Of a stretch of 64,000 nucleotides of DNA, positions 6,206 through 23,083 are shown piece after piece. The notes under the pieces are model-generated. The model did not search any database. It was not told where the DNA came from and saw only the letters and a program-made list of their open reading frames with translations. Source of the DNA: Brachypterus glaber (lineage: Eukaryota; Arthropoda; Insecta; Coleoptera; Kateretidae); assembly GCA_958510825.1 (NCBI GenBank), contig OY294049.1, positions 29,459,415 to 29,523,414 on the forward strand. Direction: 5' to 3'. The number at the start of each line of letters is the position of its first letter. Within the stretch, counting starts at the first letter, position 1. The translations under genes were made by a program, and so were the position numbers.

Positions 6206-6294
6206 ATATAAACTTGATTTTTGTGTTAGAATATCATCAATTTCTTAAGTTCGTTCAGTGGAACTAAGTTCTAGTTCAGTTTAAAGTTATAAAG
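6206..6294 (+). promoter_or_regulatory. TATA box and untranslated leader exon for the left gene cluster
   Basis: TATATAA at 6206-6212 is followed by a likely start region near 6235 and TTCAGT-type initiator matches. A strong splice donor AAAG|GTAAGG (exon end 6294) follows. No ATG frame of note lies between. Three acceptors downstream (AG at 6851-6852, 7196-7197 and 7598-7599) each sit directly before an open frame. One leader alternatively spliced to several small genes is inferred. Confidence 0.55.
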
Positions 6295-7070: not shown

Positions 7071-7162
7071 GAAAAGTAAGTTAGAAATACATTTCTAAAA
7101 AAAGTGTTACATCAGTTTTAAGAAAAGTAAGTTAAAAATACATTTCTAAAAAAAAGTGTTAC
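7058..7162. repeat. Direct repeat, two ~52 bp copies
   Basis: TCAGTTTTAAGAAAAGTAAG through AAAGTGTTAC occurs twice in a row. It separates two small genes and could duplicate a splice branch or donor region (AGTAAGTTA in each copy). Confidence 0.8.
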
Positions 7163-7197
7163 TGTTTTTTAATAATTTTTTTTTTTTTTGATTTTAG

Positions 7198-7515
7198 ATG
7201 AATTTTCAAAAATTAAAAGAAAAAAAATTTAATTCCAATCAACGTGAAATAAAAAAACCAATTAGTCTTCTTATTGGAAAAAAATATAAAATTTTATCGA
7301 TTATGGAATTTGATGGTTTAAACCAAAGAAGTTTAGTTGCCAAGTTGGAAAACTTTTCCGTTTGGATACCTAATAAATTTTACGAAATTTTTTCGAAAGA
7401 AGCAGTTACAGACTATAATCACAATCATAATGGCAAATTATATATTGAACTAATAAAAACTGAAATAATAGATGGAAAGGAATGTGCTTTTGTAGATATT
7501 GATACGTACGAATAA
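7198..7515 (+). CDS. Conserved small Polinton protein, possibly OB-fold/ssDNA-binding-like
   Basis: 105 codons, with the ATG fused directly to a splice acceptor (ten or more T's, then GATTTTAG|ATG), which supports this start. The order is a basic N-terminus, a beta-rich core (GKKYKIL near 28-34; RSLVAKL near 45-51), then VWIPNKFYEIF near 56-66 and a GKLYIEL strand. This resembles ~100-residue insect Polinton-associated proteins of the general form 'GkkYkI...kfG...va.L......LP.rf'. Role is inferred only: possibly single-stranded DNA binding during protein-primed replication. It overlaps a frame continuing past 7499 that is probably read only after the 7599 acceptor. Confidence 0.6.
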   Translation: MNFQKLKEKKFNSNQREIKKPISLLIGKKYKILSIMEFDGLNQRSLVAKLENFSVWIPNKFYEIFSKEAVTDYNHNHNGKLYIELIKTEIIDGKECAFVDIDTYE

Positions 7516-7615
7516 AGCCTATGAACCTTTTAAATTAAGGTATTTTATTTTTGCAATAAATTATTTAGTATTGTATATTTATATTTATTTTTTTTTTAGT
7601 AACATACAACTTAAA

Positions 7616-8266
7616 ATGTCGTCTGAAAATCTTAATGCTGAAACAGAAAGGTTCCTGGGTGATCACATCGAAAGTAAATCTGAACATTTTTTGGATATGG
7701 AAGAAAAAGAATTTCCGTGTACGGCTGATATGGAAGAGGCCTTTGATGGTACAGCAGAAACCAAAATTTTAACAACTTACATATGTATTTACGATTTTGA
7801 ATTTGAGAAAAACGAAGTTACTGAAAATCTTCTAAAGTTTGAGTGGAACGCAGGACAAACTAGAGCTTTAGGCGTTGCTAGTATTTGGCACCGTTTACCG
7901 GTGAATCGAGCCGCTTCGGATATTTTAGAGCCAGAAGTGGAAACAAATATAACTAATTTAGTGTACCATCCATATCAATTAATAACATGTAATAACTATT
8001 TATTACTAATTAATGAATCGAAAAAATGTTTAATAACTTGTATGAGGTGTGCACCATCAGTAATAACTGATATAAAAAATTATACAAAAGAATTATTCGT
8101 AATCCACATCCATTCCCATGGCTACGGGCACGTCCACTGCATGATTTGCAAGAAACATTTTCAAGAACCATGTATTTATCAAAGTTTTAACTGTACAGAA
8201 TGTTTTAAATATGATACATTTTTACAACATTTCAAATTATTTGACAGTTATTTTAGTAATTTTTAA
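7616..8266 (+). CDS. Cys/His-rich Polinton protein, unknown function
   Basis: 216 codons from the ATG 17 bp after a splice acceptor (AG at 7598-7599). The frame is open further up to 7499, but that part is hydrophobic AT-rich intron-like sequence. The N-terminal ~45 residues are acidic. The C-terminal ~85 residues are rich in Cys and His: a CLITCMRC cluster, then HIHSHGYGHVHCMICKKHF and CTECF. This suggests one or two zinc sites in a non-classical arrangement. No family recognised. It is the last gene of the rightward left-end cluster and is followed by ~600 bp without a gene. Confidence 0.6.
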   Translation: MSSENLNAETERFLGDHIESKSEHFLDMEEKEFPCTADMEEAFDGTAETKILTTYICIYDFEFEKNEVTENLLKFEWNAGQTRALGVASIWHRLPVNRAASDILEPEVETNITNLVYHPYQLITCNNYLLLINESKKCLITCMRCAPSVITDIKNYTKELFVIHIHSHGYGHVHCMICKKHFQEPCIYQSFNCTECFKYDTFLQHFKLFDSYFSNF

Positions 8267-8860
8267 TTGAACATATAACATTTTAAATTATATATATATA
8301 TGTTATTCTATTCTATGTTTTGTGATAATATAATTTGTTTTAAAACAAAAAAACACTCATAGGGGGTAACCACCCTAAGAACAAAAATGTTAACTTGCTT
8401 AAATAAGATTAACGTTCTTGTCACTAGGGCATTGGTTTTGAGTAAATTCTTGTTATTTTAATGTTAGAGATGTTTTTGTTCTGATATTTCTTTGATTGGT
8501 TTAACGATTGTATCCTAGTTACCTTTTAAAGAAATTAAGGATTTGGCAGTCCAATCCGAACAAAAAACACTCTCAGGTGTCACGAAGATGCTCCCTTTAA
8601 CGGACCTGAATTAACCTGAGCGCCATAAATTTTACCTGTGGTATACTGACGGGCAGATACCCTATGGTTAAACAACCCGGTAACATAATATTTTATTTTT
8701 TGTAATTTCATTTTTATAATTTTAAACTTTTCGAATAAGTGTAATATTTTTAAAAATAATTTTTAAAATATTAAGCTTATAATATTTTTAAGATTAAAGA
8801 CGACTGTAGTTTGTAGGTTTTAAATAAAATATTTTATTTGATTAACAAATTTTTATTTTT
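8267..8860. other. Intergenic region between convergent Polinton genes
   Basis: No credible frame on either strand. It has two copies of an AAAAACACTC-type start (about 8348 and 8565) heading GC-richer segments (GGGGGTAACCACCC; GGTGTCACGAAGATGCTCCC). It serves as the shared 3' region of the rightward small-gene cluster and the leftward block. A structured RNA is possible but not demonstrated. Confidence 0.5.
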
Positions 8861-9484
8861 TTACATCTCCATAGAGTTTATCTTATCTAAGTTTATTTTA
8901 ATTACATCGGGATAAAATTGTAGTAATTCTAAGAATATTAAATAATTATTGGAATTAAAAAAAAGTGATGAAAGTTTATCCAATTCTTGCATAATATCAT
9001 CAAACTGAGATATAATTGGTAAAGCGTTAGTATAAAAAAATTTAAAATCTAAATTTTTTAAATACTTTAAGCGATAGTTAATTAGAATTTGCAAAGATAA
9101 AATTTCATCAATACATTCTTTAGAAAAAATAATAGTTTTTTCTTTTTTCTCAAGTTTTAAATATTCTTGATCCTCTGTAGATTTGGTTAAATTATAGAGG
9201 TTAACTTCAAAATTTAATTGGTCCTGGTTATTCTCCAACAAAATTTTAATATTATCCAAGAAATCATACCAATCCAAGTCCAATAAAGAAATGGTTTGAT
9301 CGCTCTGTATAAATCTTAAACATGGCTCAAATCCCATAGCTACATTTAGACCAGTAGATATTTTCAAGTCACATGCTTTTGAAAAATACAATGTTTCATT
9401 TAACAGTTGTTTGTCGATTTCATCTTCGTAACACAATAATATATCGTTTACAAGATCAAAATAATCGGTCATTAAGGACATCAT
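8861..9484 (-). CDS. Conserved Polinton protein, unknown function (~207 aa)
   Basis: 207 codons, acidic and Leu/Ile/Asn-rich, predicted mostly helical. The best landmark is the segment GFEPCLRFIQ (about residues 51-60) followed by an LDLDWYDFLDNI stretch. It resembles a widespread uncharacterised insect Polinton protein with an 'FEP.lrf ... i.l...W..l' core. Two Met codons (MMSLM) leave the exact start open by a few residues. It is the last gene of the leftward block, 60 bp after the integrase. No enzymatic motif is seen. Confidence 0.65.
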   Translation of the reverse strand: MMSLMTDYFDLVNDILLCYEDEIDKQLLNETLYFSKACDLKISTGLNVAMGFEPCLRFIQSDQTISLLDLDWYDFLDNIKILLENNQDQLNFEVNLYNLTKSTEDQEYLKLEKKEKTIIFSKECIDEILSLQILINYRLKYLKNLDFKFFYTNALPIISQFDDIMQELDKLSSLFFNSNNYLIFLELLQFYPDVIKINLDKINSMEM

Positions 9485-9544
9485 TATACTTTACAATCTC
9501 AAAGAATACTAATTAAAAAAATATTTATTTTACTTAATATAGAT

Positions 9545-10477
9545 CTAAACGAAATCTTTTTTGGATATCCATTCATCATGTGACTTATCCAAACCAAGGT
9601 ATCGAACCTTTACCTTTGTGCCTTTTTTCTGTAGAATTTTTGAGATAAGATACACATCGGGATACATAACCTTAGAAATTTCAAAATTATAAAAACGGCC
9701 TTTTATTGATTCTTTTTTTTGATCCTCCAGAATATAAGTTGGGGGGTTAGTAAACTTGATTTCCTTAATGGAAAAAATTTCGTTCGACCAAGAGGGTTGA
9801 TATCCTTTGCTAAAGGCCTCTCTATATTTACTTATTCTAACAAAGTCACCAATTTTATAAAGCGGTTTTACAACTTTTTTTGGAAAACTGTAGGACTGTA
9901 ATAATATTGTTTTTTCATTTTTTTTATTAACGTCTTTAGGTTTAAAACCAGTTGTAGAATGTACAGTGTTATTATAACTATTTACTATATTTTTAAAAAT
10001 ATCCACCCATTTATAACTTCCTTGTAAGGAAAATTGACGCCACATTATATTCTTTAAAGTGCGATTTACCCTCTCTACTATTGATGCTTTAATATTTGAA
10101 TAAGTACTGTAATGATTTATTTTATACTCTTGCATTAATTGCCTAAAATCTTTGTTATAAAATTCCCGCCCCATATCGGTTTGTAGATTGTTAGGGCCTT
10201 TTTTGTTAGTTAACAAAATAGATTTCATAGCAGTTGTAACATCTTTACCCTTTTTACTTTTTAAAGGTTCTAACCATACAAATTTAGAAAACGCATTTAT
10301 TACAACTAAAATATATTTATATCCCTTATTAATTTTCGAGTAAGGGATCATTTCAACTAGATCAGCAACCCATAAATCATTTAAACCTTTAATAATTACC
10401 CTACATCGTTTAAATTTTTTTCTTGCAGGTTTGTGAAGTTCAGTAACAACTTACTCCTTAATATTACTGTTTTTCAT
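9545..10477 (-). CDS. Polinton retroviral-type integrase (in-frame stop near start)
   Basis: This is a DDE integrase that inserts the element and makes the 6 bp duplication. The catalytic core has D in ADLVEM (codon 10361-10363), D in LQTDMGREF and E in IVERVNRTLK with the usual ~35-residue spacing. An SH3-like/chromodomain-like C-terminus ends VRYLGLDKSHDEWISKKDFV. The first Met of the long uninterrupted frame (10351) lies after the first catalytic Asp, so starting there would give a dead enzyme. The coding frame continues upstream through the conserved ELHKPARKKF segment to a TAA at 10451-10453. An in-frame ATG stands eight codons further up (10477), overlapping the upstream gene by 14 bp. 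Options are a nonsense mutation, a splice to the AG at 10450-10451, or a sequencing error. Confidence 0.9.
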
Positions 10478-12365
10478 AATATATGGGCAAAAGTAACAGT
10501 AATTCCAGATAAATATTTCCTTGCGCCTTACGATCTAGTGTTGCAATAGAAAAAGTGTCAATTTTCGTAACGTCTCTGCTATTTAAATTACTTAAACCAA
10601 GCTCGGTGGTAGAATAATAATCCTTATCATTTAAAATGACAATGGCAGGAGGCCCACTATATTTTACTTTTTTTAGTACTGCCTTGTTGAAAGGAAGCTG
10701 AAACGTCTCTTTTAGGTTTTGTAATTTGTATAAATAATATTTAGATTTTACTGAATAATGTGAAGCAATAAATGTTTTGTCAGTAACTGCATTACCAGTA
10801 ATTATAAATACACTTTCATAAAATAATTTCTGAATTTTTGAATCCACAATCATTTCATTATATTGAATTTTTTTCTTATTACTTAACATAGTTTGTTCGT
10901 TTTTCTTAATTTTTTCATTTAGTTCAGAGTGTATTTTTAAAGAATTTTCAAAATCATTTTCAAGTTTAATTATTTTGTCATCTACAGTCTGAATTAGTAA
11001 TTCAGTGCTGGTTACTTTATTTTGAAAACCATCAAGTATCCCTTTTTGGTTAACACTTTTTTCAGATAAAGTTTGAATTTCTGTGTTGATGTTTTTTAAA
11101 GAGTTTTCACAGTTTTCTTTAAGTTTGTTCAGTCTTTCATTCATATTCTGAGTTAATAAGTCACTGTTGGTAACTTTATTTTGAAAACCATCAAGTATCC
11201 CTTTTTGGTTAACACTTTTTTCAGATAAAGTTTGAATTTCTGTGTCGATGTTTTTTAAAGAGTTTTCAAAGTTTTCTTTAAGTTTATCCAGACTTTCTTT
11301 CATATTCTGAGTTAATAAGTCACTGTTGGTAACTTTATTTTGAAAACCGTCAAGTATCCCTTTTTGGTTAACACTTTGTTCAGACAAATTTTGAATTTCT
11401 GTGTTGATGTTTTTTAAAGAGGTTTCAAAGTTTTCTTTAAGTTTATCCAGACTTATATCCATATTCTGAATTGTTAAGTCACTGCTGCCTGCTGAATTTT
11501 TCTCAGAAAAATTTTGAATTTCTGTTGCGATATTTTTTATAGACGTTTCAAAATTATCTTTTAGTTTAATTATTTTGTCATCTATAGTCTGGATAGATAA
11601 TTCAGTGCTGATTACTTTATTTTGAAAACTATCAAAGATCCCTTTTTGATTAATATTTTGCTCAGACAAATTTTGAATTTCTATTCCAATGTTTTTTAAA
11701 GAGTTTTCAAAGTTTTCTTTAAGTTTATCCAGTTTTTCATTCATATTCTGAGTTAATAAGCCACTGTTGGTAACTTTATTTTGAAAACTATCAAGTATAC
11801 CTTTTTGGTTTTCACTTTGCTCAGACAAATTTTGAATTTCTTTTACAATATTTTCTTTAACCTTTGTAAATTCATCTAACTTCTCTTCAAATGTCTTAAT
11901 TTTTTTTGAACTGGATCCTTCTTCTGATTCCACGCTAAGTCTTTTATTAAGTTGTTGAGTAAAATCCTTATTTATTTTAGTTTCCAGATCAGAGGATTTT
12001 TCTGTTATGATTTTATTAACAACAGTAAATACATCCTTATTTTTTGTATTAATTATTTCACCTATCCTATTATCTAAATTAATCTTTTCAATATTTGATT
12101 TTATTTTTTCGACATTTTCCAAAGATTTTTGATAAATATTATCTACATAATATTTATTGGTTGCATCAAATTTATTTTTGGGAATTTCTAAATTAATTAT
12201 TCTTTTATTTTTCATGTCATAATTATCTCCGGAATTTAAAAATTTTTGGTTAGAAATCACATTTTGTGAATCAACCGAGGGAGTTTCCGTATGAATTAAA
12301 TTTGTTTTCTCAGAGTAATTATATTTCACATCTAAATAATGTCTACCAAACTTATCGATAGGCAT
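10464..12365 (-). CDS. Fibre-like coiled-coil protein with ~53-residue repeats
   Basis: 633 codons in three parts. The N-terminus (MPIDKFGRHYL) is followed by the NYDMKNKRIINL...DATNKYYVDNI segment, which has the form of phage tail-fibre and trimeric-stalk modules. The middle (about residues 165-470) is a coiled-coil stalk of about six tandem ~53-residue repeats, each containing a form of NQKGILDGFQNKV, then LDKLKENFENSLKNI and EIQ-LSE. One repeat is shortened. The C-terminal ~140 residues are non-repetitive and beta-rich, like a head or receptor-binding domain. It lies directly downstream of conserved structural genes. By architecture (anchor, stalk, knob) it is a plausible host-attachment spike anchored to the penton. 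This is inference from layout, not from recognised fibre homology. The repeats are recent: the DNA copies between 10970 and 11860 are highly similar. Confidence 0.75.
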   Translation of the reverse strand: MPIDKFGRHYLDVKYNYSEKTNLIHTETPSVDSQNVISNQKFLNSGDNYDMKNKRIINLEIPKNKFDATNKYYVDNIYQKSLENVEKIKSNIEKINLDNRIGEIINTKNKDVFTVVNKIITEKSSDLETKINKDFTQQLNKRLSVESEEGSSSKKIKTFEEKLDEFTKVKENIVKEIQNLSEQSENQKGILDSFQNKVTNSGLLTQNMNEKLDKLKENFENSLKNIGIEIQNLSEQNINQKGIFDSFQNKVISTELSIQTIDDKIIKLKDNFETSIKNIATEIQNFSEKNSAGSSDLTIQNMDISLDKLKENFETSLKNINTEIQNLSEQSVNQKGILDGFQNKVTNSDLLTQNMKESLDKLKENFENSLKNIDTEIQTLSEKSVNQKGILDGFQNKVTNSDLLTQNMNERLNKLKENCENSLKNINTEIQTLSEKSVNQKGILDGFQNKVTSTELLIQTVDDKIIKLENDFENSLKIHSELNEKIKKNEQTMLSNKKKIQYNEMIVDSKIQKLFYESVFIITGNAVTDKTFIASHYSVKSKYYLYKLQNLKETFQLPFNKAVLKKVKYSGPPAIVILNDKDYYSTTELGLSNLNSRDVTKIDTFSIATLDRKAQGNIYLELLLLLPIYYEKQ

Positions 12366-12399
12366 CTTGACTAGAACTAACCTAATTTTATTTGTTTTT

Positions 12400-13503
12400 T
12401 TATTTTATAATTTTTTTTTCTCGGAGTTCTTCAACTATAGATATAATTTCATTATTATGCCCCGTATGTCCAGCCATTTGTGAGGCAATTAAAAGTTTTA
12501 GGCGTTCAATGATTTCATTAGGGTCATCAAAATATATATAATCAATTTTTTTTTTTGAGAGGTCAAGCATTAAACCTTTTCCAGTTTTATTTTTTGAACT
12601 TCTCAGATTTTTTGGACTCCTGTAAACAATGTTTTTTTGGCTTAAAATCCCCTTTTGGACTAAAAATGGTCTTATGATATTATTATATTTGTCTGTATTT
12701 GATGCTTGAATGCTCTCAGTTTCGTTATAGTTTTTACGATATGCATTAGTTCGCTTTAAAATATCCATATAATTTTCTAAATCGCTTTTATGATATCCAA
12801 TAGGATGTTTTTTAAAAAGTAATTCATAAAGTCCCACTGTTCCAGGATATTGAACATTTTCTACAACTACATCCTTTCCTTTAAAATTTAATAAACTGTT
12901 CGCTATTTTATACACATCTGAATCTGGTGAATATTTAATTCCATACTTAAAATCAAACTGATTTTCAGTATCATGAATACATTCATCAATATACCTCCGA
13001 GGTAAAGGATCAAATTGAGAAAGGTAGTCCTGATAAGTCGCGGCGGTAGATAAATTTTGAACTTGTTCAAGAAGACTAGTTTCTTTATTTAAATCAACAT
13101 CACTGTCATCCTCTTGTATTGTTTTATCCTCTATATATTGATCCTTTAAAAACGATGGTGTTGTCATAGGCAAAACAGGTTGATATTTTGTAGTTCTGGG
13201 TGTTGCAAATTGTGTCGCATCTGCTTGATTTTCGTGAAATTTATTTTGTAAGGTTGAATGTAAAAATGAAATATCTTTGGTTTGATCTGATTTAACTGCG
13301 CCTGGTAATTCTTCTAGTTTTTCCCTTTTAATATTTGTATCTGGTATTATATTTTTTAGAAATTTTTCTAATGGTTCCGTAATTGGTTTACTTCGAAGTT
13401 TTAATTCCCTTTCCGATTGCGCTAAATCAGATTTTAAAGTACGATATTTTTGTTTAATAGATTTTCTTGTGTTAATTAATTCTTTAGCTAAACGTTCGTT
13501 CAT
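12400..13503 (-). CDS. Conserved Polinton structural/accessory protein (DUF8207-like)
   Basis: 367 codons. The N-terminal ~150 residues are charged and coiled-coil or disordered (RKSIKQKYRTLKSDLAQSEREL), followed by an acidic linker. The conserved C-terminal half holds the VQYPGTVGLYELLFKKHP landmark (about residues 219-236) and ends with a block containing IYFDDPNEIIERLKLLIASQ then HNNEIISIVEELRE. That combination is a family I know as common in insect Polintons, which I believe is catalogued as DUF8207 (the number is from memory). The biochemical role is unknown. It sits 34 bp from the fibre-like gene in a tight leftward block, fitting a virion or assembly protein. It starts at the first ATG. 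Confidence 0.75.
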   Translation of the reverse strand: MNERLAKELINTRKSIKQKYRTLKSDLAQSERELKLRSKPITEPLEKFLKNIIPDTNIKREKLEELPGAVKSDQTKDISFLHSTLQNKFHENQADATQFATPRTTKYQPVLPMTTPSFLKDQYIEDKTIQEDDSDVDLNKETSLLEQVQNLSTAATYQDYLSQFDPLPRRYIDECIHDTENQFDFKYGIKYSPDSDVYKIANSLLNFKGKDVVVENVQYPGTVGLYELLFKKHPIGYHKSDLENYMDILKRTNAYRKNYNETESIQASNTDKYNNIIRPFLVQKGILSQKNIVYRSPKNLRSSKNKTGKGLMLDLSKKKIDYIYFDDPNEIIERLKLLIASQMAGHTGHNNEIISIVEELREKKIIK

Positions 13504-13600
13504 GTTTTTGTGTTAAAAGACCACACTTAACTAAAACTATTACTTTTAGAATAACTTTATATACAGGTTGAAATAAAACGAATAATTATTAAAAAAATAT

Positions 13601-14050
13601 TTAATTATTCACTAAAAAGTTATTATACAGAAAATATACATTAGATAGGGAACACACACAGAAATCATTGTTATGATAAAAACAAAGTGGTTTAGATTTT
13701 TGAATAGCTGGTATTTCATTCAATTCGACTACTGTTTTTTTTGTTAGTTTTTTAATATATGCAGCTTTCTCTGTTCCTTTGATGAAAATTTTCTCAGCAT
13801 TTTTACAAAGGTCTCTGATAATATTTTGAGAATTATAAGCTAATATATATCCTGTGTCCCACTTAATACAATGATGATTTTTGATATTCCACTGAGCCTG
13901 TTGTTGTAAATATTTTGGTAAATCCTTAAATTTAAATGGTGCCTTAAAAACGTAGTGACTTACTCTAAATCCATCAAAAGCTGCAAGTTCCTTAATTAAA
14001 AATCGATTACCTTCTAATTTAAATGCCTGAAAATCTATAACTAAACTCAT
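13601..14050 (-). CDS. Conserved Polinton protein, DnaQ/RNase-H-fold-like
   Basis: 149 codons. The N-terminal pattern VIDFQAFKL then FLIKELAAFDG, a HYVFKAPF strand, then HHCIKWDTGY, and a central IFIKGTEKAAYIKKL match a small arthropod Polinton-associated family whose strand order suggests an RNase-H/DnaQ-type fold. The usual acidic catalytic set is not clearly complete, so nuclease activity is uncertain. The C-terminus has a Cys/His cluster (LCFYHNNDFCVC), possibly a zinc site. It lies 12 bp from the major capsid gene, in the leftward block. Confidence 0.6.
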   Translation of the reverse strand: MSLVIDFQAFKLEGNRFLIKELAAFDGFRVSHYVFKAPFKFKDLPKYLQQQAQWNIKNHHCIKWDTGYILAYNSQNIIRDLCKNAEKIFIKGTEKAAYIKKLTKKTVVELNEIPAIQKSKPLCFYHNNDFCVCSLSNVYFLYNNFLVNN

Positions 14051-14062
14051 TATTTTTTTTAA

Positions 14063-15286
14063 TTATAAATGTTTAACAATTTTTGTTAACGGATTGTAAC
14101 TTATTAATTTTTCATGTAAAATTAAACAATAAGCTGAAGTTTCCTTGGGAACATTTACAGAGGTCTCAAATTCAACTCTAAGTGTGATAGGTCCACTTTG
14201 AATTGATTCTTTTTGTCGTAAACAGTCAATATATGTAATAGGTGCTATACTTTTAAATTCTGTTGGTGTAAATAGAGGAATATTTGCAAGGTCATAATAT
14301 GAACTTCTAAACTTTGCAAACATTTCATAAAGTTGAGCAAACTTATTATTTTCGAAATCTATAAACAGATCATTACAAGGATATCTCTCTGAATTTAAAA
14401 ACACCCTTATATCTCGAAGTTTGCAGTCATCAAATTTACTCATGTCTTTTGACACGACATCCCTTCTCCTTGTTTGAAAAGCTATAATAATATGTCTCGG
14501 TGTTTCCAGTCTTGTGCTAGTCTTAACTGACCAATTATGTCTATTTGTGTCCAATAATTCAGGATATTCAACAAGTTCCCAACTTCTAAAGCCAATTTTT
14601 ATATCAACATTTTTATCAATTAGTTTTGTCAGAGCAATTTCTTCAGCTAAACCAACAGATACGTGAGGTATTTTCCAAGAAAGTTTCATAAGTTCAATTT
14701 TAGGTTCTTCTGTACCTGTCGTACCAGTATATAATACAGAATTTAAATCATTATTACTGCGAACTATTATTAATTCCTGTTTAGCATTAATCAATATCTT
14801 TCGAAAATCCTCAAAAAAACCCATTAATGTAGACAATTCAATAACTACATTGAAATTTCCGTTTTTATCTACTAGAATAGGTTCTGTATATTTGGATTTG
14901 GGAAACCATCCTGCATTTTCCAGTTTGACTGTGTCACCAACACAAAATGAGAGATAACCTTTTAAAGTTGAGGTTAATCCAACGTCTCTAACTGAATCAA
15001 CTTGTTGCCCATTTATTAAGTATCGGATTTCTTTAAAAAGAAAAGCTACCCCGTTATTTATTAGCGTTAAATTTTTAGTTACACTGCCATCAGATTTTGT
15101 TAGTTTTCCCTCGATATTTAAAAAACTTTCACAAGGTAACGTAAATTTATCTGCGCCCGGTATAGCTATTATTATTTCATCATTATTGCCTAACTTATTG
15201 GGTAAATATGGTTCATATGTATGATATTGTAAACTAGTTATTGAATTATCAATATAGAGATTTTCCGTTACATTTAAAATACTCAT
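14063..15286 (-). CDS. Major capsid protein, double jelly-roll
   Basis: 407 codons. It matches the insect Polinton capsid pattern: an N-terminal arm with DNSITSLQYHTYEPYLPN (about residues 13-30), then DEIIIAIPGADKFTLPCESFL starting the first jelly-roll, and the FLFKEIRYLINGQQVDSVRD segment about residues 86-105. The second half carries RRRDVVSKDMSKFDDCKLRD and IRVFLNSERYPCNDL. In this family the protein forms trimeric pseudo-hexameric capsomers of an icosahedral shell, as in adenoviruses and virophages. No break or frameshift is seen. The start is the ATG two bases after the small basic gene's stop. A complete capsid gene implies this lineage could make virions. Confidence 0.9.
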   Translation of the reverse strand: MSILNVTENLYIDNSITSLQYHTYEPYLPNKLGNNDEIIIAIPGADKFTLPCESFLNIEGKLTKSDGSVTKNLTLINNGVAFLFKEIRYLINGQQVDSVRDVGLTSTLKGYLSFCVGDTVKLENAGWFPKSKYTEPILVDKNGNFNVVIELSTLMGFFEDFRKILINAKQELIIVRSNNDLNSVLYTGTTGTEEPKIELMKLSWKIPHVSVGLAEEIALTKLIDKNVDIKIGFRSWELVEYPELLDTNRHNWSVKTSTRLETPRHIIIAFQTRRRDVVSKDMSKFDDCKLRDIRVFLNSERYPCNDLFIDFENNKFAQLYEMFAKFRSSYYDLANIPLFTPTEFKSIAPITYIDCLRQKESIQSGPITLRVEFETSVNVPKETSAYCLILHEKLISYNPLTKIVKHL

Positions 15287-15287
15287 T

Positions 15288-15464
15288 TTAAATTAGTAAG
15301 GTAAAGCCTAAAGATTTTAAAAACCGATGATTTTTCGGTGTTATCTGTTTAACGTTTGTTTTAGAAATGCGTTTTTTCGAAACTTTCTTTTTTTTATACT
15401 TTCCTTCATCTAATTTAAAATTATTAGAACTAGTAGTAAAAGAAGGATTATATTTAGTAACCAT
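15288..15464 (-). CDS. Small basic protein between penton and capsid genes
   Basis: 58 codons, strongly basic with runs such as KYKKKKVSKKR (about residues 23-33), ending in a conserved-looking TPKNHRFLKSLGF segment (43-55). It overlaps the penton gene's end by 11 bp and stops one base before the capsid ATG. That packing argues for a real gene. A core or DNA-condensing peptide of the virion, analogous in size and charge to small adenoviral core proteins, is an inference. The KN-x-x-FLKSLG tail may be a protease-processed or packaging signal. Start: the only in-frame ATG. Confidence 0.6.
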   Translation of the reverse strand: MVTKYNPSFTTSSNNFKLDEGKYKKKKVSKKRISKTNVKQITPKNHRFLKSLGFTLLI

Positions 15465-16155
15465 TTTTACTTTTAATTTTTTTCACGTGTAGTCTTATTG
15501 TTATCACTTCATCATTAAAATTGATGAGATCACCATCTTGATCAAGTATTTTAAGGGATATGTTCGTTATAGTTTTCACGTTTATGGGAAAATATAAAAT
15601 TGTTTCAGGTCTTTCCACTATTTTATAACCAACAGGAACTATGGGAAAGAATTGATGAATAATATGAACAGGTTTTCCGTTTAAATAGGATCCTTCTGCT
15701 ATATTACAATCTATACAAATTGCATTTATTTTTAAAATTTCTGCTGGATGATCTGAATCATATGCAGTTCCTGCTTCTAAAGTTTTATTTTCAAAACCTA
15801 AAATTTTTCCGATGGAATCGTCTTTGAAAATTATCTTTTCTGTGCATCTGATATATGTATGTAATGTATTGTTATTTCCATATAAAACAAGCAATATTTT
15901 ACCCGTGCTAAGTTCCCTATGTAAAAATTTATATAAATCGGATATCTCGTAAGACCCAGTTGGTATAGTCACAAATGTATTTTCATCTCTATAATAAAAT
16001 TTATTATTTTTTTCGTCAATATTAGGAATAGAGTAAAAAGTCTCAAAATTTGATAATCCTATAACATAATCACTATTTTCGTCTAAATAAATCGGGGGGT
16101 TAAAAACAGCACTTAATACCGATTTTTTATCCGAAAGAGCTAATGTAAAAGACAT
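15454..16155 (-). CDS. Minor capsid protein (penton-like, single jelly-roll)
   Basis: 233 codons. The N-terminal third (LALSDKKSVLSAVFNPPIYL, then DYVIGLSNFETFYSIPNI and NNKFYYRDEN followed by VTIPTGSYEISDLYKFL) has the pattern of the Polinton/adintovirus-type penton protein. The remainder is beta-rich, as expected of a jelly-roll. Its predicted role is pentamers at the five-fold vertices, where fibre-like proteins normally attach. It lies 34 bp downstream of the protease gene and overlaps the small basic gene. It is intact. Confidence 0.8.
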   Translation of the reverse strand: MSFTLALSDKKSVLSAVFNPPIYLDENSDYVIGLSNFETFYSIPNIDEKNNKFYYRDENTFVTIPTGSYEISDLYKFLHRELSTGKILLVLYGNNNTLHTYIRCTEKIIFKDDSIGKILGFENKTLEAGTAYDSDHPAEILKINAICIDCNIAEGSYLNGKPVHIIHQFFPIVPVGYKIVERPETILYFPINVKTITNISLKILDQDGDLINFNDEVITIRLHVKKIKSKNGY

Positions 16156-16189
16156 TACAATTCAAGTGATATTATTCAACTAATTTTTT

Positions 16190-16585
16190 TTACTGTTTTT
16201 TACTGTTCTTATAAAGAAATGATAAACATAAATGACCACAATTATAAAGATTGAATTTTTGTTTCCGTTCATAATTATATTTAACATTCTTGACGTTACC
16301 ATCACTAAAAAAATATTTAATTAATTCTTCGGGAGGTCTTAAGTTTCCGTACGAATCAAAGTACTGTATTTCCCTATTCTTTTTTTGTACATACGTTACC
16401 CAATGGCTGCCAGGTCCAGAAGATACATCTAAATTTACGATACCACATTCATTTTTTCTAATTCTTTTTGGTAGATTATCCCGCATAAATACACCGCGAA
16501 AATTTGGAATTTTTAGTTCTTTTACAATTTTTAATAAATCAAAATTTGTAAGTGGCCGATGTGGTATTTTCTCTAGAAGTTTTTT
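16190..16585 (-). CDS. Adenain-like maturation cysteine protease
   Basis: Catalytic elements are visible. Numbering from the Met at 16486: His28 in GPGSHW, Asp44 in YFDSYG, a Gln at 76 and Cys83 in NCGHLC. This is the order of the adenovirus-type (C5/C48-like) protease that matures capsid precursors. The Met at 16486 gives 98 codons, but the coding frame continues upstream without a Met for 33 more codons to a TAA at 16586-16588. It includes IPHRPL and IPNFRGVFM, which belong to the family's N-terminal part. The true start is probably in an upstream exon, with a possible acceptor CTTCTAG ending at 16573. The open frame overlaps the end of the phospholipase-type gene by about 13 bp. Confidence 0.85.
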   Translation of the reverse strand, partial: KKLLEKIPHRPLTNFDLLKIVKELKIPNFRGVFMRDNLPKRIRKNECGIVNLDVSSGPGSHWVTYVQKKNREIQYFDSYGNLRPPEELIKYFFSDGNVKNVKYNYERKQKFNLYNCGHLCLSFLYKNSKKQ

Positions 16586-17489
16586 TTAAATCGATTATTC
16601 CAGACCAAACCAAAGCCCTTTTTGTAAGGTTGTAGGTACAATCCCTTTCCAACATGCTTATTTTCCATAGCTAAATTATGTCTATTTTCTTCGTCCAGTT
16701 TTTGTCTAGCTATCTTGGTTTCGTTAACGGCCTTTATAACACCAGCAGCTCCTCCGACAAGTGAACCTAAAGCGCTGAGTCCTAAAACAAAATAAAAATA
16801 AAATTTTTGTAATGTAAAATGTTTTTTTTACACAAACCTGCGAATATTGGAATGAGTGGTAAAATTCCTCCTGTTTTTGGAATAGGTATTATTCTTTCTT
16901 TTGGTGCAATTATTTTTCGACCTCCTTTCTTTAGTGTCTTGAGTGCAACTCTGGTTAAGTTTTCTAAATTAGATGTTCGCGGTAAACTAGCTAAACTGTG
17001 ACGAGCTTTTCTAACCGCCGCAAAAAAATTCAGATCTTTCTTACGCACACCTTTTCCTTTTTTTCGTCTTTTTCTAATATTTCTTTTTCTAATACCCATA
17101 CCAAGTTTAGTTTTTGCTTTCATTGTTGAAGCTACACCTAAGGCCAAAATTTTTTCACCAATTTTTGCGTCACTTGATTTAAACCTATTGTACGCTTTAT
17201 TTTCTAATATTTTATCAGCTAGATTACGTTTCTCAACGTCTTGAAATTTGGAGTAGGCTATATCATGTTCTTTACAAGCTTCATCCAATTTATTTATTCC
17301 TTTGTCACCTCGTGAAAGGCGTTTCGCTAAGGCAGTACCGGGGCCACAAAAGTTATACCCTGGCAAATGTAATTCTACCGGTAATGTGTTTATAAATTTA
17401 TTTAGAAAACCGTAGCCTCGTTTTTTTGCACCTCTTCTTTCCTTAAAGTCTTGTTTAGAAATAATATTAGATTTTGTGAGAACCCTCAT
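16573..17489 (-). CDS. Phospholipase A2-domain / hydrophobic virion protein, one intron
   Basis: Exon 1 is 17489-16838 and exon 2 is 16781-16573, around a 56 nt GT-AG intron (GCAG|GTTTGT...TTTTAG|GA): 286 residues in total. The N-terminal domain is a parvovirus-capsid-type phospholipase A2: calcium loop YNFCGPGTAL (residues 45-54) and catalytic HD at 75-76 in CKEHDIAY. A very basic segment near 130-155 follows. Across the splice comes a Gly/Ala-rich hydrophobic segment, then an alpha-helical tail with HVGKGLYLQPYKKGFG. Such PLA2 domains breach endosomal membranes in known capsids. Here the combined basic and membrane-active layout suggests an entry or minor core protein. It is the first gene of the leftward virion block, divergent from the ATPase. 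Without splicing it would end at 16782 after unrelated residues. Confidence 0.85.
16782..16837 (-). other. Intron in the phospholipase-type gene
   Basis: 56 nt. The donor is GCAG|GTTTGT at 16837, the acceptor TTTTGTTTTAG at 16782. Splicing keeps the frame and restores the hydrophobic LPLIPIFAGL context into a Gly/Ala-rich helix. Its size equals the polymerase introns (54 and 56 nt). Confidence 0.85.
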
Positions 17490-17599
17490 TTTATATAACT
17501 GTACAAATTAGAACTGAATTTTCTAAGCAATACAACTTTTTAAATAGATTAACATTATTAAATAGAACTCATTCTAATACAAATAATGAGAAAGGGAAC
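17490..17599. promoter_or_regulatory. Divergent promoter between virion block and ATPase
   Basis: 110 bp separate the two opposing ATGs. TATATAA on the minus strand lies immediately before the leftward ATG, which is too close for a normal TATA distance. No clear TATA is seen for the rightward gene. Shared regulation of capsid and packaging genes is inferred from position only. Confidence 0.45.
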
Positions 17600-18286
17600 A
17601 TGCGAATTGAGCAACAATCTTTTGCTCTTCCAATTAAAAATCACGATCAACTCGACAATAAACAATTCCAAAAGCATGGACCAATATTTTGTGGAGGACC
17701 AAAACGAGGACTAGTCGTGGGTGCATCGGGATGTGGAAAAACCAACGTTTTAATTAGTTTAATAGAACACCTGAACGGACTTAGATTTGAAAATATATAT
17801 GTTTACTCAAAATCTTTAAACCAACCAAAATATAAATATTTAAGTTTTTTATTAAAACCAGTAAAAGAAATAGGATATTTTGAGTTTGAAAACTGCAATA
17901 ATTTAATAACTCCTGCTGCAATAAAACCTAATTCCATCGTAATATTTGACGACGTAGTGTGTGGAAATCAAAGTACTATTAGAGATTTTTTTGTCTATTC
18001 CCGACACAAAAATACCGACGTATTTTACCTAGCACAAACTTACTCCGCCGTTCCAAAACAACATATAAGGGATAATGCAAATTTATTAATTATCTTTCAA
18101 CAAGACAATACGAATTTAAAACACATTTATGACGACCATGTTAATGTAGATATGCCTTTTAAAGATTTTCAGAAATTGTGTTCTTTGTGTTGGATAGATA
18201 GATATGATTTTGTAGTTATTGATAAGGATTGTAAATTAAATTCAGGTCGTTATAGAAACGGATTTGATAAATTTATTAAAATATAA
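17600..18286 (+). CDS. A32-like genome-packaging ATPase (FtsK/HerA superfamily)
   Basis: 228 codons. Walker A is GASGCGKTN (residues 41-49) and Walker B is IVIFDD (113-118). The following SRHKNTDVFYLAQTYSAVPK block holds the conserved Gln/Ser sensor region of this family. Length is normal for Polinton ATPases. In relatives the enzyme pumps replicated DNA into preformed capsids. Its presence with capsid, penton and protease completes the morphogenesis set. The gene is intact, starts at an ATG after GAGAAAGGGAAC, and is followed by the polymerase in the same direction. Confidence 0.93.
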   Translation: MRIEQQSFALPIKNHDQLDNKQFQKHGPIFCGGPKRGLVVGASGCGKTNVLISLIEHLNGLRFENIYVYSKSLNQPKYKYLSFLLKPVKEIGYFEFENCNNLITPAAIKPNSIVIFDDVVCGNQSTIRDFFVYSRHKNTDVFYLAQTYSAVPKQHIRDNANLLIIFQQDNTNLKHIYDDHVNVDMPFKDFQKLCSLCWIDRYDFVVIDKDCKLNSGRYRNGFDKFIKI

Positions 18287-18389
18287 ACAAATTAACCTTG
18301 AATATAAAGATATAATTATATGTAAAGTTTTAAAACTGTAGTTCCAAACTATCTGTTAACTAATAAACATATTTGTTTTAGTCCAAAAA

Positions 18390-21300
18390 ATGATCAACTG
18401 TCAACATTGTGGAAAGTCATTCACTCGTAAAGATAATCTTAAGCGACATGGAAACTGCAATGAGGGTTTTCAGCTTTGTGAAATTTGTGGTTCAGTTTCA
18501 AAATCTACAAGATCTTTACAATTACATCAAAATAAATTCCATGGATTGAAAAGAACTGCAAGTGCTCCAATTAAAACCTCTGCCACAAAACAACTGTGTT
18601 TGAATGGTAAGCAAATCAGTTTACATTGTAAGATTTTTCAATTTATAATACTTCTTTTAGCACCCTCAACTTCAGCCACATCATACTGTTTAGTTTGTGA
18701 TATTCATGTAGCGAGAAATATGTTTGCTGGGCACAAAAAATCACTTTCTCATCGCGATAAATGTTGTAAAGATTTGGAAGAAGGAATTGAGATTATTCAA
18801 TCTGCATTTCAAAAAAGGATTGCAAGTTTTCGTTTGAAACCATCAGAAAACTTTGGTGTTGATATAAAAAGATTTCTAAAATCGTTTGAGGCTAAAGTAG
18901 TTCGATTGACTCAAATTTATTTAAAAAATGAAGAATCCCTGAAAATAAATATAGAGCTATTTGGATCTTATGTTTTACAAACAAAAGAAAAACATGAAAC
19001 AAAATCTTTTAATACAAAATTTAGGGTTTTGAATGAGGCTATCAACCTTGAGGAGGTCTACACGGAACTATGCGAAACTGTTGAAACGAAATCTAAGGAA
19101 TTTTCGGAAAAAGATAGCGGTAAGTTTAACTGTTTTAATATTTCAATTATTTTTAATCGAAACCATTTGTTTTAGGTTGGGCCTTGGAAAAAATATTATA
19201 CTTGGAATTAAATATAAACAAGTATAATCCTTTACGAGCCACTTCGTACATATCACTTTCACCAAGCATAACTAAAAAAAAGGCTGTACTAAATATACAA
19301 AATGAAGATACGAAATGTTTCTTATGGTCAATCTTAGCTCAATTACATCCAGTAAATATAAATAGAGAAAGAGTTCAAAACTATAAAATCTATGAAAACA
19401 GTTTAAATTTTGAAGGGATCGAATTTCCTGTAAAACTAACTGATATAACAAAATTTGAAAAACTAAATGATATATCTGTAAATGTTTATGGCTTGGAGAA
19501 AATTTGGAAAAATAATTCATATAAATATGAAATTGTTGGTCCATTATATTTTACAAAATCACGTAAAGGAACACATGTAAATTTACTTTTTATAAGTGAT
19601 GCTGAAGGAAATAATCATTACTGTTTAATAACAAATTTATCTCGGTTAGTTTCTGCACAATTGTCAAAGCATAATGGAAAAAAACATATATGTGATGGAT
19701 GCTTAATTTATTTTTCAACAAAAAAAAATTAAACCGTCATCAGGAGAATGACTGTAATCATATATCCGTACATTTACCTGACAGTAATTCTTTTAAAATT
19801 AATATATCAGGAAACGATGTACCAGCAACTTTGTTAAAATTTCAAGACCATGATAAAAAACTCAAGGTTCCTTTCGTAATATACGCTGATTTTGAAACTA
19901 TCTTAAAATCTATAGATAGCTGCGCGCCAACTCCAGAAAAATCGTATACCTTACAAACTCATATTAATATCCCATACTCTTATGCTTATTATATAAAATG
20001 TGATTTTGATGAAAATCTTTCACAATTTAAAACTTTTCGTGGTGAAAATGTCTCAGATAATTTTATCCAATCTTTAGAAACAGATTGTAGAAACATTTTT
20101 GAAAAATATTTACGTCATATTATTCCTATTAAAAAATTAACTGAAATGGAAGAACTAACTTTTAAAAATACTAAAAATTGTCATATTTGTGAAAAAGAGT
20201 TTGATGAAGATAGTGTAAAAGTAAGGGATCACTGTCATTTAACTGGTAATTTTAGAGGAGCGGCTCATTCAATTTGTAATTTAAATTTCAAAATTTCACA
20301 ATTTATACCAGTACTTTTTCATAATTTAAGTGGGTTTGATAGTCATATGTTTATAAAAGAGTTGGCCCAAAATGAGGCAAATATTGAGGTTTTACCTAAA
20401 AATAAAGAAAAATATATTTCTTTCACGAAAAATATACTCATTACACATAGTAGTGCTGATGGAAAAACCGTAACTGAATATTTAAAAATCAGGTTTTTAG
20501 ATAGTTTTAATTTCCTACCGGGTGGTTTGGAGAAACTGAGTCAAAGTCTAAAATCTGATCAATGCCGTGAAGTAAGAAAATACTTTCCTAATAGTGATCA
20601 ATTTGAACTGATTCGTCAAAAAGGTGTTTTTCCCTATTCATATATAAATACTTATTCAAAATTAAATGACACGAAACTTCCTTCAAAACATAACTTTTTT
20701 AACGAACTCAGAAATGAAAGTATCACAGATGAGGATTATCAACGGGCTTGTAATGTATGGAATTTATTTAAATGTAAAACTTTGGGTGAATATTCAGATA
20801 TTTATCTAAAATCTGATGTTCTTCTGTTAGCAGACATCTTTGAAAACTTCAGATCTGTATGTTTGGAAATATATCAGTTGGATCCAGCAAATTTTTATAC
20901 ATCTCCAGGCCTTTCTTGGAGTGCAATGTTAAAGAAAACTGAAGTAGAGTTAGAACTTTTAACAGATCTAGATATGTATCATTTTCTTAAAAAGGGTATA
21001 CGGGGCGGTTTAAGCCAGTGTAGTATCAGAAAAGCAGAAGCAAATAATCAGTTTATGTCAACCTATGATCCATCAAAACCAACATCTTTTATCACATACT
21101 TGGATGCTACAAATTTATACGGAGCGGCCATGTCACAATTTCTTCCAGTTAATAATTTTCAATGGTTGACTAGGGAAAAAATTAAAAAAATTAATGTAAA
21201 TAAAATTAGCGACACAAACGAAATGGGTTATATTTTAGAAGTTGATTTGGAATATCCTAAACATTTACATAACCTTGACAATGAACTACCCTTTTGTCCA

Positions 21301-22349
21301 GAATCTAAAGAAGTTTCTAAATCTAAAATTACAAAATTAATTGCAAATCTAGAAAACAAATCACAATATATTATACATTATAGAAATCTTAAGCAAGCTT
21401 TAGAACATGGACTCAGGCTGACCAAAATTCATAGGATTTTGAGTTTTAATCAGTCGCCATGGCTAAAGCGATATATAGACTTAAATACTAAAATGCGCAA
21501 TAATGCTAAATCCAAATTTGAAAAGGATTTTTTTAAATTAATGGTCAATTCAGTATTTGGAAAAACCATGGAAAATGTGGATAAAAGGGTTGATGTTAAA
21601 CTAATTACTCATTGGAAAAATATTGGTAAAAAATTAGGTGCCGAGGCTCTAATTGCCAAGCCAAATTTTAAAGACTTAAAAATTTTTTCGGAAAACTTTG
21701 TAGCAATACAAATGAATCGTATTAAAGTTGTATATAATAAACCTATTTATGTCGGTTTTTGTATTTTGGATTTAGCAAAAACCTTTATTTATGATTTTTA
21801 TTACAACTACATCAAATTAAAATATGGGGATAAGGCCGTTTTGCTTTACACTGATACAGACTCACTCCTACTGCAAATTTTTACAGAAAATTTCTATGCT
21901 GATATAGAGGAAAATTTAGATAAATTCGATACATCTAATTACAGTCTAGAAAATCCTTATGGAATTTCCGTAAACAAGTCAATTTTGGGAAAAATGAAAG
22001 ATGAGTATGCTGGTGAAATTATTCATGACTTTTATGGTACTGGGGCTAAAGCTTATTGTGTAAATGTGTCTGGAAAATTAACAAAAAAGGCAAAGGGTAT
22101 ACCAGATACAGTTTCAAAAAAAGACTTATCTAAAGACGATTACAAATTAGTAGTAGAGACAGAAGGGGAAAAATATTTCGTGAAATTAAAACTTTTCGGT
22201 CACATTTACATAACGTATATGTGGAGCAAAAAAATAAAGTAGCTCTCTCATATGCGGATGATAAGCGATTTATTATACCCGGTACTGAAAAAACTCTAGC
22301 TTGGGGGCATCAGGATATAAAAAAATATAAACAATTAGTTCCTGATTGA
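18390..22349 (+). CDS. polB: Protein-primed family B DNA polymerase (two frameshifts)
   Basis: About 1,280 residues if read through. The N-terminus has two C2H2-like zinc fingers (CQHCGKSF, CEICGSVS). Introns are 18607-18660 (54 nt, in frame) and 19120-19175 (56 nt, GTAAGT...TTTTAG, splitting a Gly codon). Further on are an HNH-like RDHCHLTG segment (about 20226), Exo I DFET (19888), Exo II HNLSGFDSH (about 20320), Exo III YLKSDVLLLAD (about 20803), motif A DATNLYG (about 21103), motif B NSVFGK (about 21548) and motif C YTDTDS (21847-21864). All catalytic residues are present. It replicates the element from protein-primed ends. Breaks are a -1 shift at an A9 run (19720-19728) and another at an A4 run (22188-22191), after which the normal C-terminal frame runs to the stop at 22347-22349. 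A splice acceptor just before the ATG (AG 18380-18381) implies an untranslated leader exon. Confidence 0.95.
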
Positions 22350-22365
22350 TCAACTTGCAAACAAC

Positions 22366-22536
22366 ATGTTAAAGGAGCTTCTTGAGATTTATCTAAAAAA
22401 AATACATGATTTAAAAATAGATATTGAAGAGTATGAGGCGAAACTGAAAATGTTTTCCAAATTTTCCAAGCTAAGTCTAACAAAACAAAACATGTCACGT
22501 TTCACAAAAAATAATTTGTATCAAAATGAAAAATAA
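22366..22536 (+). CDS. Small coiled-coil protein after the polymerase
   Basis: 56 codons starting 16 bp after the polymerase stop. The first half is a heptad-like helix (LLEIYLKKIHDLKIDIEEYEAKL), and the second half is Ser/Lys/Asn-rich (SKFSKLSLTKQNMSRF). The composition is balanced, unlike the AT-driven random frames nearby. Probably a small accessory protein; no family recognised. Confidence 0.45.
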   Translation: MLKELLEIYLKKIHDLKIDIEEYEAKLKMFSKFSKLSLTKQNMSRFTKNNLYQNEK

Positions 22537-22571
22537 AAAATAATTAATAACATCCTTTTGTTTTATTTTCC

Positions 22572-22781
22572 CTAATTTAAATTAACAATTTTATTTTTAA
22601 TTAACATGTAAAGTCGAATTTTACATTCTAGAACTTTATTCAAAGTACGACTAGCTGCTTCTATTCTTCTTTGAAAATGAAATCTATCTCGGGCATCTTG
22701 TTCCCAATTCACCCAATTTTCCAAATCTTCGTGTGGGATATAATAGGTGATTGTTATGGGATCAAACTTCACTCTTTGCAT
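22572..22781 (-). CDS. PPP1R15/GADD34-core-like protein (PP1 regulatory motif)
   Basis: 69 codons. Residues 3-6 are RVKF, a perfect RVxF docking motif for protein phosphatase 1. A hydrophobic strand ITITYYI follows at 9-15, then WEQDARDRFHFQRRI at 26-40. In the cellular PPP1R15 family (GADD34/CReP) the same order defines the core that holds PP1 and recruits phosphorylated eIF2alpha: K/RVRF, a beta strand, then WE-x-x-ARDR-x-RF-x-RRI. Several large DNA viruses carry such cores to undo host translation shutoff. A matching role here is inferred from the motifs. The rest of the protein is a short helix. The gene is isolated at the right end, antisense to the polymerase, just inside the terminal repeat. 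A TATATATATAA lies 18-28 bp upstream of the ATG. No break is seen. Confidence 0.6.
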   Translation of the reverse strand: MQRVKFDPITITYYIPHEDLENWVNWEQDARDRFHFQRRIEAASRTLNKVLECKIRLYMLIKNKIVNLN

Positions 22782-22854
22782 AATTACTAATTTTCAGATT
22801 ATATATATAAAACTCGATTACACCCTTATATTAAGATCAAATCACAACTTTCCA

Positions 22855-23077
22855 ACTGTCCCCCGTACATAACAAAAAAATTGGAGGAAAACTGACGTCA
22901 TCACCTATCTCGCAATGTAAAAACCAACAGAATAACTTTTCGACTGCCCCCCGTAAAATGGGAGTGAACTGACGTCATCACCTATATCGCAATGTAAAAA
23001 CCAACAGAATAACTTTTCGACTGCCCCCCGTAAAATGGGAGTATGGGAGGATTATGAACTCTCTAAAAAACACTACT
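22855..23077. repeat. Polinton right terminal inverted repeat
   Basis: It ends CACTACT and mirrors the left end. It contains a tandem duplication of a ~75 bp block (GCAATGTAAAAACCAACAGA ... GTAAAATGGGAGT twice). It therefore differs from the left end, which has one block and an insertion. Each block carries TGACGTCA, a perfect CREB/ATF-type palindrome (three in the right repeat region counting 22890-22900, one at about 4759 on the left). Confidence 0.9.
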
Positions 23078-23083
23078 TCCACG
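23078..23083. other. Polinton target-site duplication, right (TCCACG)
   Basis: Identical to 3883-3888. Flanking sequence GGACTTTAAAAAAAATG continues the interrupted repeat exactly as in the unoccupied copy near 1437. Confidence 0.95.

Follow-up and report, generated by a model that had tools for sequence, protein, structure and literature searches.

Does a frame of 69 codons at the right end of a beetle Polinton encode a subunit that directs a host phosphatase against translation shut-off? Whether animal Polintons have a viral stage today is an open question; their capsid genes mean that they could make particles, and few Polinton genes point to a fight with the host. We examined the frame in a 64,000-nucleotide stretch of the Brachypterus glaber genome (the window), asking whether it is a gene, whether it is related to PPP1R15 and what its product might do.

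An intact frame beside the Polinton polymerase

The element carrying the frame bears the hallmarks of a Polinton, namely a type-B DNA polymerase, an rve integrase, a double jelly-roll capsid, an A32 ATPase, terminal inverted repeats that are 98.8% identical along 82 columns, and a 6-bp duplication (Table 1). Pfam also recognised a C2H2 protein, and its search of the Polinton frames left four, including a conserved frame at 12400-13503, without a family. The protease-like frame is 47-58% identical to frames of 2 further Polinton families, F2 and F3.

An earlier note, made from the sequence alone, had described an intact 69-codon frame with RVKF at residues 3-6 and WEQDARDRFHFQRRI at residues 26-40, and we found both motifs exactly so. 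It lies antisense to the polymerase, ~330 bp past the polymerase 3' end, and no other listed frame (≥50 codons) separates it from the right terminal repeat; the frame map and the delimited repeats thereby bear out the right-end, antisense site that the note had given. Reading the same interval on the plus strand was ruled out by three stops. Among 14 copies inspected, 7 have AATAAA or ATTAAA at most 120 bases from the stop, and in 6 of these it stands 4 bases past it.

Several other features of the element and its flank were observed. A tRNA-like sequence at 5962-6034 on the minus strand (Rfam tRNA 30.1 against a 29-bit threshold; no ARAGORN call) is perhaps a SINE head. Adjoining the integrase, 10464-12365 (minus strand) encodes a coiled-coil-like, possibly fibre-like protein of 633 amino acids with internal repeats of 159 bases. 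At the left end, plus-strand frames at 5259-5774, 7198-7515 and 7616-8266, with no Pfam family above cut-off, are candidates for further accessory genes; the first has a hydrophobic C-terminal stretch resembling a membrane anchor. A subterminal tandem repeat at 22890-23042 (two copies of a 77-bp unit) contains a TGACGTCA palindrome and has one extra unit in other insertions. Directly right of the Polinton, a large imperfect foldback occupies 23140-24709, with inverted arms of 317, 71, 55, 50 and 35 bases.

Table 1 Features of the Polinton, its PPP1R15-like frame and the F2 counterpart (window positions unless another locus is named)
Feature	Position	Strand	Basis or remark
Whole Polinton	3889..23077		19,189 bp
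Left terminal inverted repeat	3889..3969	+	Starts AGTAGTGTTTTTTAGAGAG
Right terminal inverted repeat	22996..23077	-	
Target-site duplication TCCACG, left	3883..3888	+	Perfect, 6 bp
Target-site duplication TCCACG, right	23078..23083	+	Perfect, 6 bp
Retrovirus-type integrase (rve)	9545..10351	-	Pfam E 2.1e-11
Double jelly-roll major capsid protein	14063..15286	-	Pfam E 8.2e-101
Protease-like frame, 98 aa	16190..16486	-	Peptidase_C48 E 0.021, below cut-off
Phospholipase A2-like protein	16782..17489	-	Pfam E 2.5e-15
A32-like ATPase	17600..18286	+	Pfam E 4.7e-7
Type-B DNA polymerase (DNA_pol_B_2)	19699..22242	+	Pfam E 2.8e-29
PPP1R15-like frame, 69 aa	22572..22781	-	Intact; ATG 22779-22781, TAG stop 22572-22574
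RVKF (3-6), predicted PP1-docking RVxF motif	22764..22775	-	13-row alignment
T12-Y13-Y14	22740..22748	-	Invariant in 13/13 rows
Linker (16-25), fast-changing	22707..22736	-	Arg-pocket residue absent
WEQDARDRFHFQRRI (26-40), predicted G-actin/eIF2alpha-contacting helix	22662..22706	-	Profile and structure-database alignments
LNKVL (47-51), in register with DP71L LSAVL	22629..22643	-	13-copy profile alignment
TATA-like stretch	22799..22809	-	18-28 bases upstream of ATG; by eye, no statistic
AATAAA, poly(A)-like signal	22562..22567	-	4 bases past stop
F2 gene, PPP1R15-like, 78 aa from ATG	L060:5269-5502 = G000:C1:82639269-82639502		PF10488

The frame is under purifying selection across five lineages

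We sought copies in the 648-Mb genome that holds the window. The product gave 59 match rows, of which 38 span residues 1-68 or 1-69 uninterrupted by a stop; 18 of these intact rows, window included, are 100% identical to the window product. Together with the capsid protein, which likewise returned 14 rows at 100% and the top E-value (window included), this marks lineage A as recently expanded. DNA was taken for 46 loci representing 50 of the 59 rows, the remaining nine all being 100% identical to the window. Lineages A-E were defined from the divergent copies, and identity to the window ranges from 62 to 96% among the 13 rows that we aligned. The other 33 loci were left out for stops, truncations, a lost ATG or near-duplication, many being broken in the manner of dead insertions, and several rows were trimmed at codon 68 where some frames extend to 71-110 codons; this selection and trimming bias the alignment toward intact motifs.

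Comparison of the window copy with lineage E gave a dN/dS of 0.20 (dN 0.19, dS 0.93), and with D, C and B values of 0.30, 0.37 and 0.34. Two C-like copies (L015 and L024) gave 0.64 and 0.71 against the window, and the ratio exceeded 1 in two of 28 pairs (L015-L024 and L030-L034), where changes are few. Against neutral simulations (1000 each at kappa 1, 2 and 4), the window-E, C-E and C-D pairs showed fewer nonsynonymous changes than any simulation at every kappa. The fraction of simulations with as few was 0.007-0.038 for window-D and 0.06-0.16, not significant, for window-B, a pair with 13 differences. At similar dS, the polymerase ratio was 0.23 for B, 0.27 for D and 0.30 for C, while two loci of E, compared over 689 and 266 codons, gave 0.16 and 0.13; these ratios include some neutral decay, with 2-5 stops in four of the five polymerase copies. 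The small gene is, by this similarity to the polymerase range of 0.13-0.30, constrained about as firmly as the polymerase. Taken together, these codon comparisons show the PPP1R15-like frame to be under purifying selection.

Among 38 loci retrieved by position, 25 have the polymerase C-terminus within ~500 bases. Within lineage E, locus L031 reaches the polymerase by DNA similarity and two extended loci contain polymerase sequence; at L062 no polymerase sequence was seen. The PPP1R15-like gene has thus travelled with the element since before the A-E split.

Profile searches relate the frame to the PPP1R15 core

Searched alone against the PDB with phmmer, the window product matched African swine fever virus (ASFV) DP71L best (E 2.4e-4), followed by PPP1R15A and PPP1R15B (0.065-0.11). 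With a profile of 13 copies, DP71L (4.4e-7), two PPP1R15B entries (1.9e-4 and 2.1e-4) and two PPP1R15A entries (2.1e-3 and 0.029) were the top five of 14 matches. From the residue equivalent to W582 of human PPP1R15A onward, the alignment is ungapped over 26 residues with PPP1R15A and 36 with DP71L. Matches to toxin A and cell-wall-repeat structures (E ≥0.037, no stretch passing alone) were discarded as chance tyrosine-rich matches.

We also built an independent HMM from the host PPP1R15 exon and the PPP1R15-like gene of the F2 Polintons, with nothing from the window lineage. It ranked the frame first of the 611 window frames of at least 40 codons (25.2 bits, E 4.1e-7), the runner-up scoring 6.9 bits (E 0.21); in a random control, 20 first-order Markov sequences with 10,876 frames in all, the top score was 11.5 bits (E 0.14).

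The Pfam family PP1c_bdg (PF10488) matched the window sequence at E 0.039, behind EAD9 (0.023), and its score of 14.1 bits falls short of the 26.1-bit cut-off; across the lineage it matched all but one of the 13 members at E ≤1, at best 9.3e-4. EAD9 and MYB-CC, matched by just 1 and 2 of the 13 members, were rejected as alternatives. The PF10488 cut-off is also missed by the F2 gene (18.7 bits) and by P0002 (17.8 bits), a PPP1R15-like protein of 74 amino acids that was the sole match (E 5.6e-3) of the lineage profile at E ≤1 among 5.8 billion proteins. As a single query the window product had no match in that collection. A mixed profile including P0002 and the F2 gene returned 15 small proteins from it (P0002-P0016, 56-132 amino acids), all with FQRRI and one named at source 'Phosphatase-1 catalytic subunit binding region'. 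The contigs carrying these proteins are short, at most 537-3973 bases; they are possibly further viral or Polinton copies. IMG/VR viral contigs scanned for relatives gave 35, 62, 28 and 29 pattern matches, with 0 confirmed. A fold search with the AF2 model returned three meaningless matches (E ≥4.8), as expected for a product that is one helix.

The PDB profile, the Pfam matches of lineage members and the host-plus-F2 HMM all agree that the likeness to PPP1R15 exceeds chance, as had been proposed. We show by these comparisons that the window frame is, at the level of sequence, homologous to the PPP1R15 core.

Docking and helix residues are kept while two arginines are replaced

Counted over the 13 aligned rows of the window lineage, with W26 mapped to W582 of human PPP1R15A, the RVxF motif has an invariant F, with V in 12 of the 13 (I in the other) and R in 11 (S in two). 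T12-Y13 stands 6-7 residues past that F, in register with the PhiPhi motif (V564-H565 in human PPP1R15A; PMC10743859), with T replacing a hydrophobic residue. In the predicted helix, the equivalents of W582, R587, F592 and R595 are invariant, and R594 and I596 are kept in 12 of 13; in the L..VL segment, L47 and L51 are invariant and V50 is found in 12. These counts sustain the expectation that RVxF and ARDR residues would be conserved in related Polintons, here within the same genome.

Other positions depart from the family. Linker residues 16-25 average 35% identity to the window (12 rows), against 79-88% for the other three segments, and the distance from the RVxF phenylalanine to the tryptophan is 20 positions (19 in lineage E) against 24 in human PPP1R15A, which makes the linker 4-5 residues shorter. 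The Arg-pocket residue 4 before the tryptophan (R578 in human PPP1R15A, R658 in human PPP1R15B) is N, E or D in every row, and the equivalent of R591, an eIF2alpha contact, is H or Y in every row; the R612 position, counted ungapped, is Q in the five lineage-E rows. Two intact near-duplicates outside the alignment carry R instead of the tryptophan (L010) and RVRF (L020). P0009 has the same F-to-W distance of 20, yet it retains the complete ARDRARFQRRI and has an Arg at -5, which shows that a more canonical relative can have a short linker as well.

The minimal PPP1R15 core that the earlier note had proposed thus stands in outline, with a shorter linker, N/E/D for R578 and H/Y for R591 setting it apart. 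Because of these two replacements and a Pfam score below the cut-off, we call it a divergent PPP1R15-like core and not a full family member. An AF2 model from a 2-sequence alignment (pTM 0.44) places a helix at 17-68, with pLDDT ~90 or more from ~31 to 60, and a flexible N-terminus (mean pLDDT 43 and 50 in the first two ten-residue blocks), a prediction that fits the proposed binding mode without proving it.

A second Polinton family carries a more canonical gene

Searching the host genome with PF10488 returned 12 rows: the host PPP1R15 core exon (C18:22036955-22037083; L047:1435-1653, G000:C18), ten rows of the F2 gene and one lineage-E copy. The host exon, at 31.1 bits in this search and 33.7 in the Pfam comparison with the F2 gene and P0002, is the sole row above the cut-off. 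The F2 gene matches DP71L first in the PDB (6e-6) and retains Arg 4 before Trp (RK.NW). It is flanked by a conserved frame (32% identity to window 12400-13503), whose end it overlaps by ATGA, and by an integrase gene that comes next (57% identity to that of the window); the F2 major capsid is 43% identical, and the window polymerase as query found no match within the F2 stretches examined. The earlier note had overlooked this second family, which bears a more canonical version elsewhere in the element.

Of the ten F2 rows, six are arranged as three pairs in inverted orientation, ~8.9 kb apart (two pairs on C4, one on C16); the pair examined, on C4, lies inside 3.8-kb inverted repeats that duplicate the integrase too.

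Identity between P0002 and the F2 gene is 46%; in the host genome, P0002 matches the F2 gene at 5e-10, the host exon at 1.2e-5 and the window lineage at best at 0.001 (window copy 0.19). Identity of the window product is 37-38% with the F2 gene and with P0002, compared with 25% for the host exon; these identities and our tree rest on MAFFT alignments (A2, A3) that misplace the N-terminal motif and linker because the linker is shorter. In the tree, support for the window clade is 100/99; the host row groups with P0007 (86/84), and the deep forks are unresolved, with long branches.

A third family, F3 (C18:10514001-10534000 and C19:6431001-6449000), has a capsid 49% identical to the window's. 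The family profile found no frame better than E 1.3 in these two loci and in C11 and C10 regions with more divergent capsids, a small sample in which some elements may be cut or decayed; the PPP1R15-like gene therefore looks like an optional accessory.

A putative eIF2alpha-phosphatase subunit and its alternatives

We consider it probable, at roughly 0.7, that the frame encodes a divergent minimal PPP1R15-like regulatory subunit, a Polinton accessory gene product that steers PP1 to phospho-eIF2alpha. In PPP1R15, RVxF and PhiPhi are described as holding PP1 (PMC8500838, PMC4394352, PMC10743859), and the helix after W582 as contacting G-actin through F592, R595 and I596 and eIF2alpha through R587, R591 and R594 (PMC8500838, PMC10743859); a core of ~70 residues is reported to suffice in cells (PMC8500838, PMC4394352). 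By analogy, the flexible N-terminus would dock host PP1 through RVKF and the subsequent T-Y strand, and the helix from W26 would bind G-actin by F36, R39 and I40 and the folded part of eIF2alpha by R31 and R38. PP1 would thereby be held on phospho-Ser51 of eIF2alpha, and translation could resume once host eIF2alpha kinases respond to the element's replication or particle production. PP1 would still be steered to eIF2alpha, the Arg anchor having been lost or replaced. We infer, as the earlier note had, that the product may antagonise translation shut-off.

Several points count against this reading: loss of the Arg pocket and of R591, Q at R612 in lineage E, the L010 copy without its Trp and the window score below the Pfam cut-off. 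An alanine mutant of the Arg-pocket residue (R578/R658) is reported to weaken actin activation markedly (PMC4394352); with that residue and R591 lost and the linker shorter, the activity and selectivity of the product are putative. Substrate recruitment has also been argued to lie outside the PPP1R15 core (PMC8633803, PMC7615683), and C-terminal cores are reported to form PP1 complexes without selectivity for eIF2alpha (PMC8633803), so substrate recruitment by the core is disputed for the cellular proteins too.

This last report favours the main rival, that eIF2alpha selectivity has been lost and a PPP1R15-derived product binding PP1, perhaps with actin, retargets or sequesters PP1 or the host holophosphatase. 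Replacement of both arginines in all 13 rows and the fastest change in the linker between the two motifs speak for it as well. Nonetheless, the eIF2alpha contacts R587 and R594 and the actin contacts F592, R595 and I596 are among the best kept, which is more than a mere PP1 decoy would need, and P0009 joins a short F-W distance to a canonical helix and an Arg at -5; we regard this rival as unlikely. Far less probable is a PP1-docking protein of unrelated origin whose two motifs converged and which acts on particle-assembly or replication proteins. RVxF is described as common among PP1 partners (PMC10743859), and the gene adjoins the polymerase, but convergence would have to extend over the ungapped alignments with PPP1R15A and DP71L.

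The host exon offers a source for recent capture, in which the gene would be not yet functional or hitch-hiking. Identities and tree do not favour this, the window product being closer to the F2 gene and P0002 (with the N-terminal half poorly aligned) and its clade separate from the host row below the unresolved deep forks; the gene is also older than the A-E split, with polymerase sequence adjoining it in lineages B, C and D and at two loci of E, and we hold this origin to be highly improbable. The poorest candidate, with a negligible chance of being right, is a chance or unconstrained frame whose PPP1R15 likeness is coincidental. The frame is short, in AT-rich DNA, a motif-seeking reader scans many frames, the window sequence scores weakly with Pfam, where an unrelated family ranks above PP1c_bdg, and constraint against lineage B alone is not significant. 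Against this stand purifying selection over a dS of ~0.9, top profile matches confined to PPP1R15 and DP71L, and first rank among 611 frames with a lineage-free profile, which we take to refute it. The divergent eIF2alpha-directed PP1 subunit remains our preferred reading.

Implications for Polinton biology

More tentatively, and at somewhat less than even odds, animal Polintons took PPP1R15 on two or more occasions (the two families differ in its place and in its sequence type) and so regularly meet the host eIF2alpha stress response, and the eIF2alpha-directed PP1 subunit of the window lineage works without the Arg-pocket anchor. If true, that repeated meeting is what an infectious or particle-making stage would be expected to bring. 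An eIF2alpha-phosphatase adaptor maintained by selection would be evidence, from the genome itself, that Polintons clash with the integrated stress response, and loss of the Arg pocket would serve as a natural experiment on which PP1 contacts can be spared. Herpesviruses, asfarviruses and baculoviruses are known users of the PPP1R15 module, and Polintons would join them. In aggregate, the gene suggests that Polintons must overcome host translation shutdown, as true viruses do.

Comparison with known systems

Viral capture of PPP1R15 is already known, with homologues described in herpesviruses, ASFV and insect baculoviruses (PMC4394352, PMC10807198, PMC5704228). As far as we searched the open literature (5.39 million papers, an incomplete coverage), its occurrence in Polintons is unreported: among the papers listed, no report joins Polintons, Mavericks or adintoviruses with PPP1R15, GADD34 or an eIF2 phosphatase function, in keeping with the earlier note's view that the function was undescribed there. 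Passages of PMC6401483 and PMC5704228 name Polintons only in a reference or apart from phosphatase, and the main text of PMC11071296, a preprint on animal-virus gene transfer and adintoviruses, contains neither 'phosphatase' nor 'eIF2'.

Cellular PPP1R15A/GADD34, PPP1R15B/CReP and the host PPP1R15 share with the Polinton product the order RVxF, strand, W, ARDR, F and R.I. Mammalian PPP1R15 proteins exceed 600 amino acids and have further regions (PMC8500838), whereas the Polinton gene holds the core only and has lost the R578 and R591 equivalents. By description, two viral groups are alike: granulovirus and baculovirus homologues (coGV-gp036), in which insect DNA viruses have captured the PPP1R15 core (PMC4394352, PMC5704228), and HSV-1 gamma-34.5 (ICP34.5), with a viral RVxF and a PPP1R15-like C-terminal core (PMC10807198) that, unlike the Polinton gene, forms the end of a longer protein. 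The F2 gene is likewise PPP1R15-like and Polinton-borne, but keeps RK.NW and sits elsewhere in its element. Closest among solved structures is the short form of ASFV DP71L (PDB 9nb9 chain B), which is borne by a DNA virus and about 70 amino acids long, with W, DRF.FQRRI and L..VL in the same register. DP71L carries RVxF, and its LSAVL is said to bridge PP1 and eIF2alpha (PMC10807198); it retains RKGPW, with Arg at -4 from the W, where the Polinton product has no Arg and a shorter linker.
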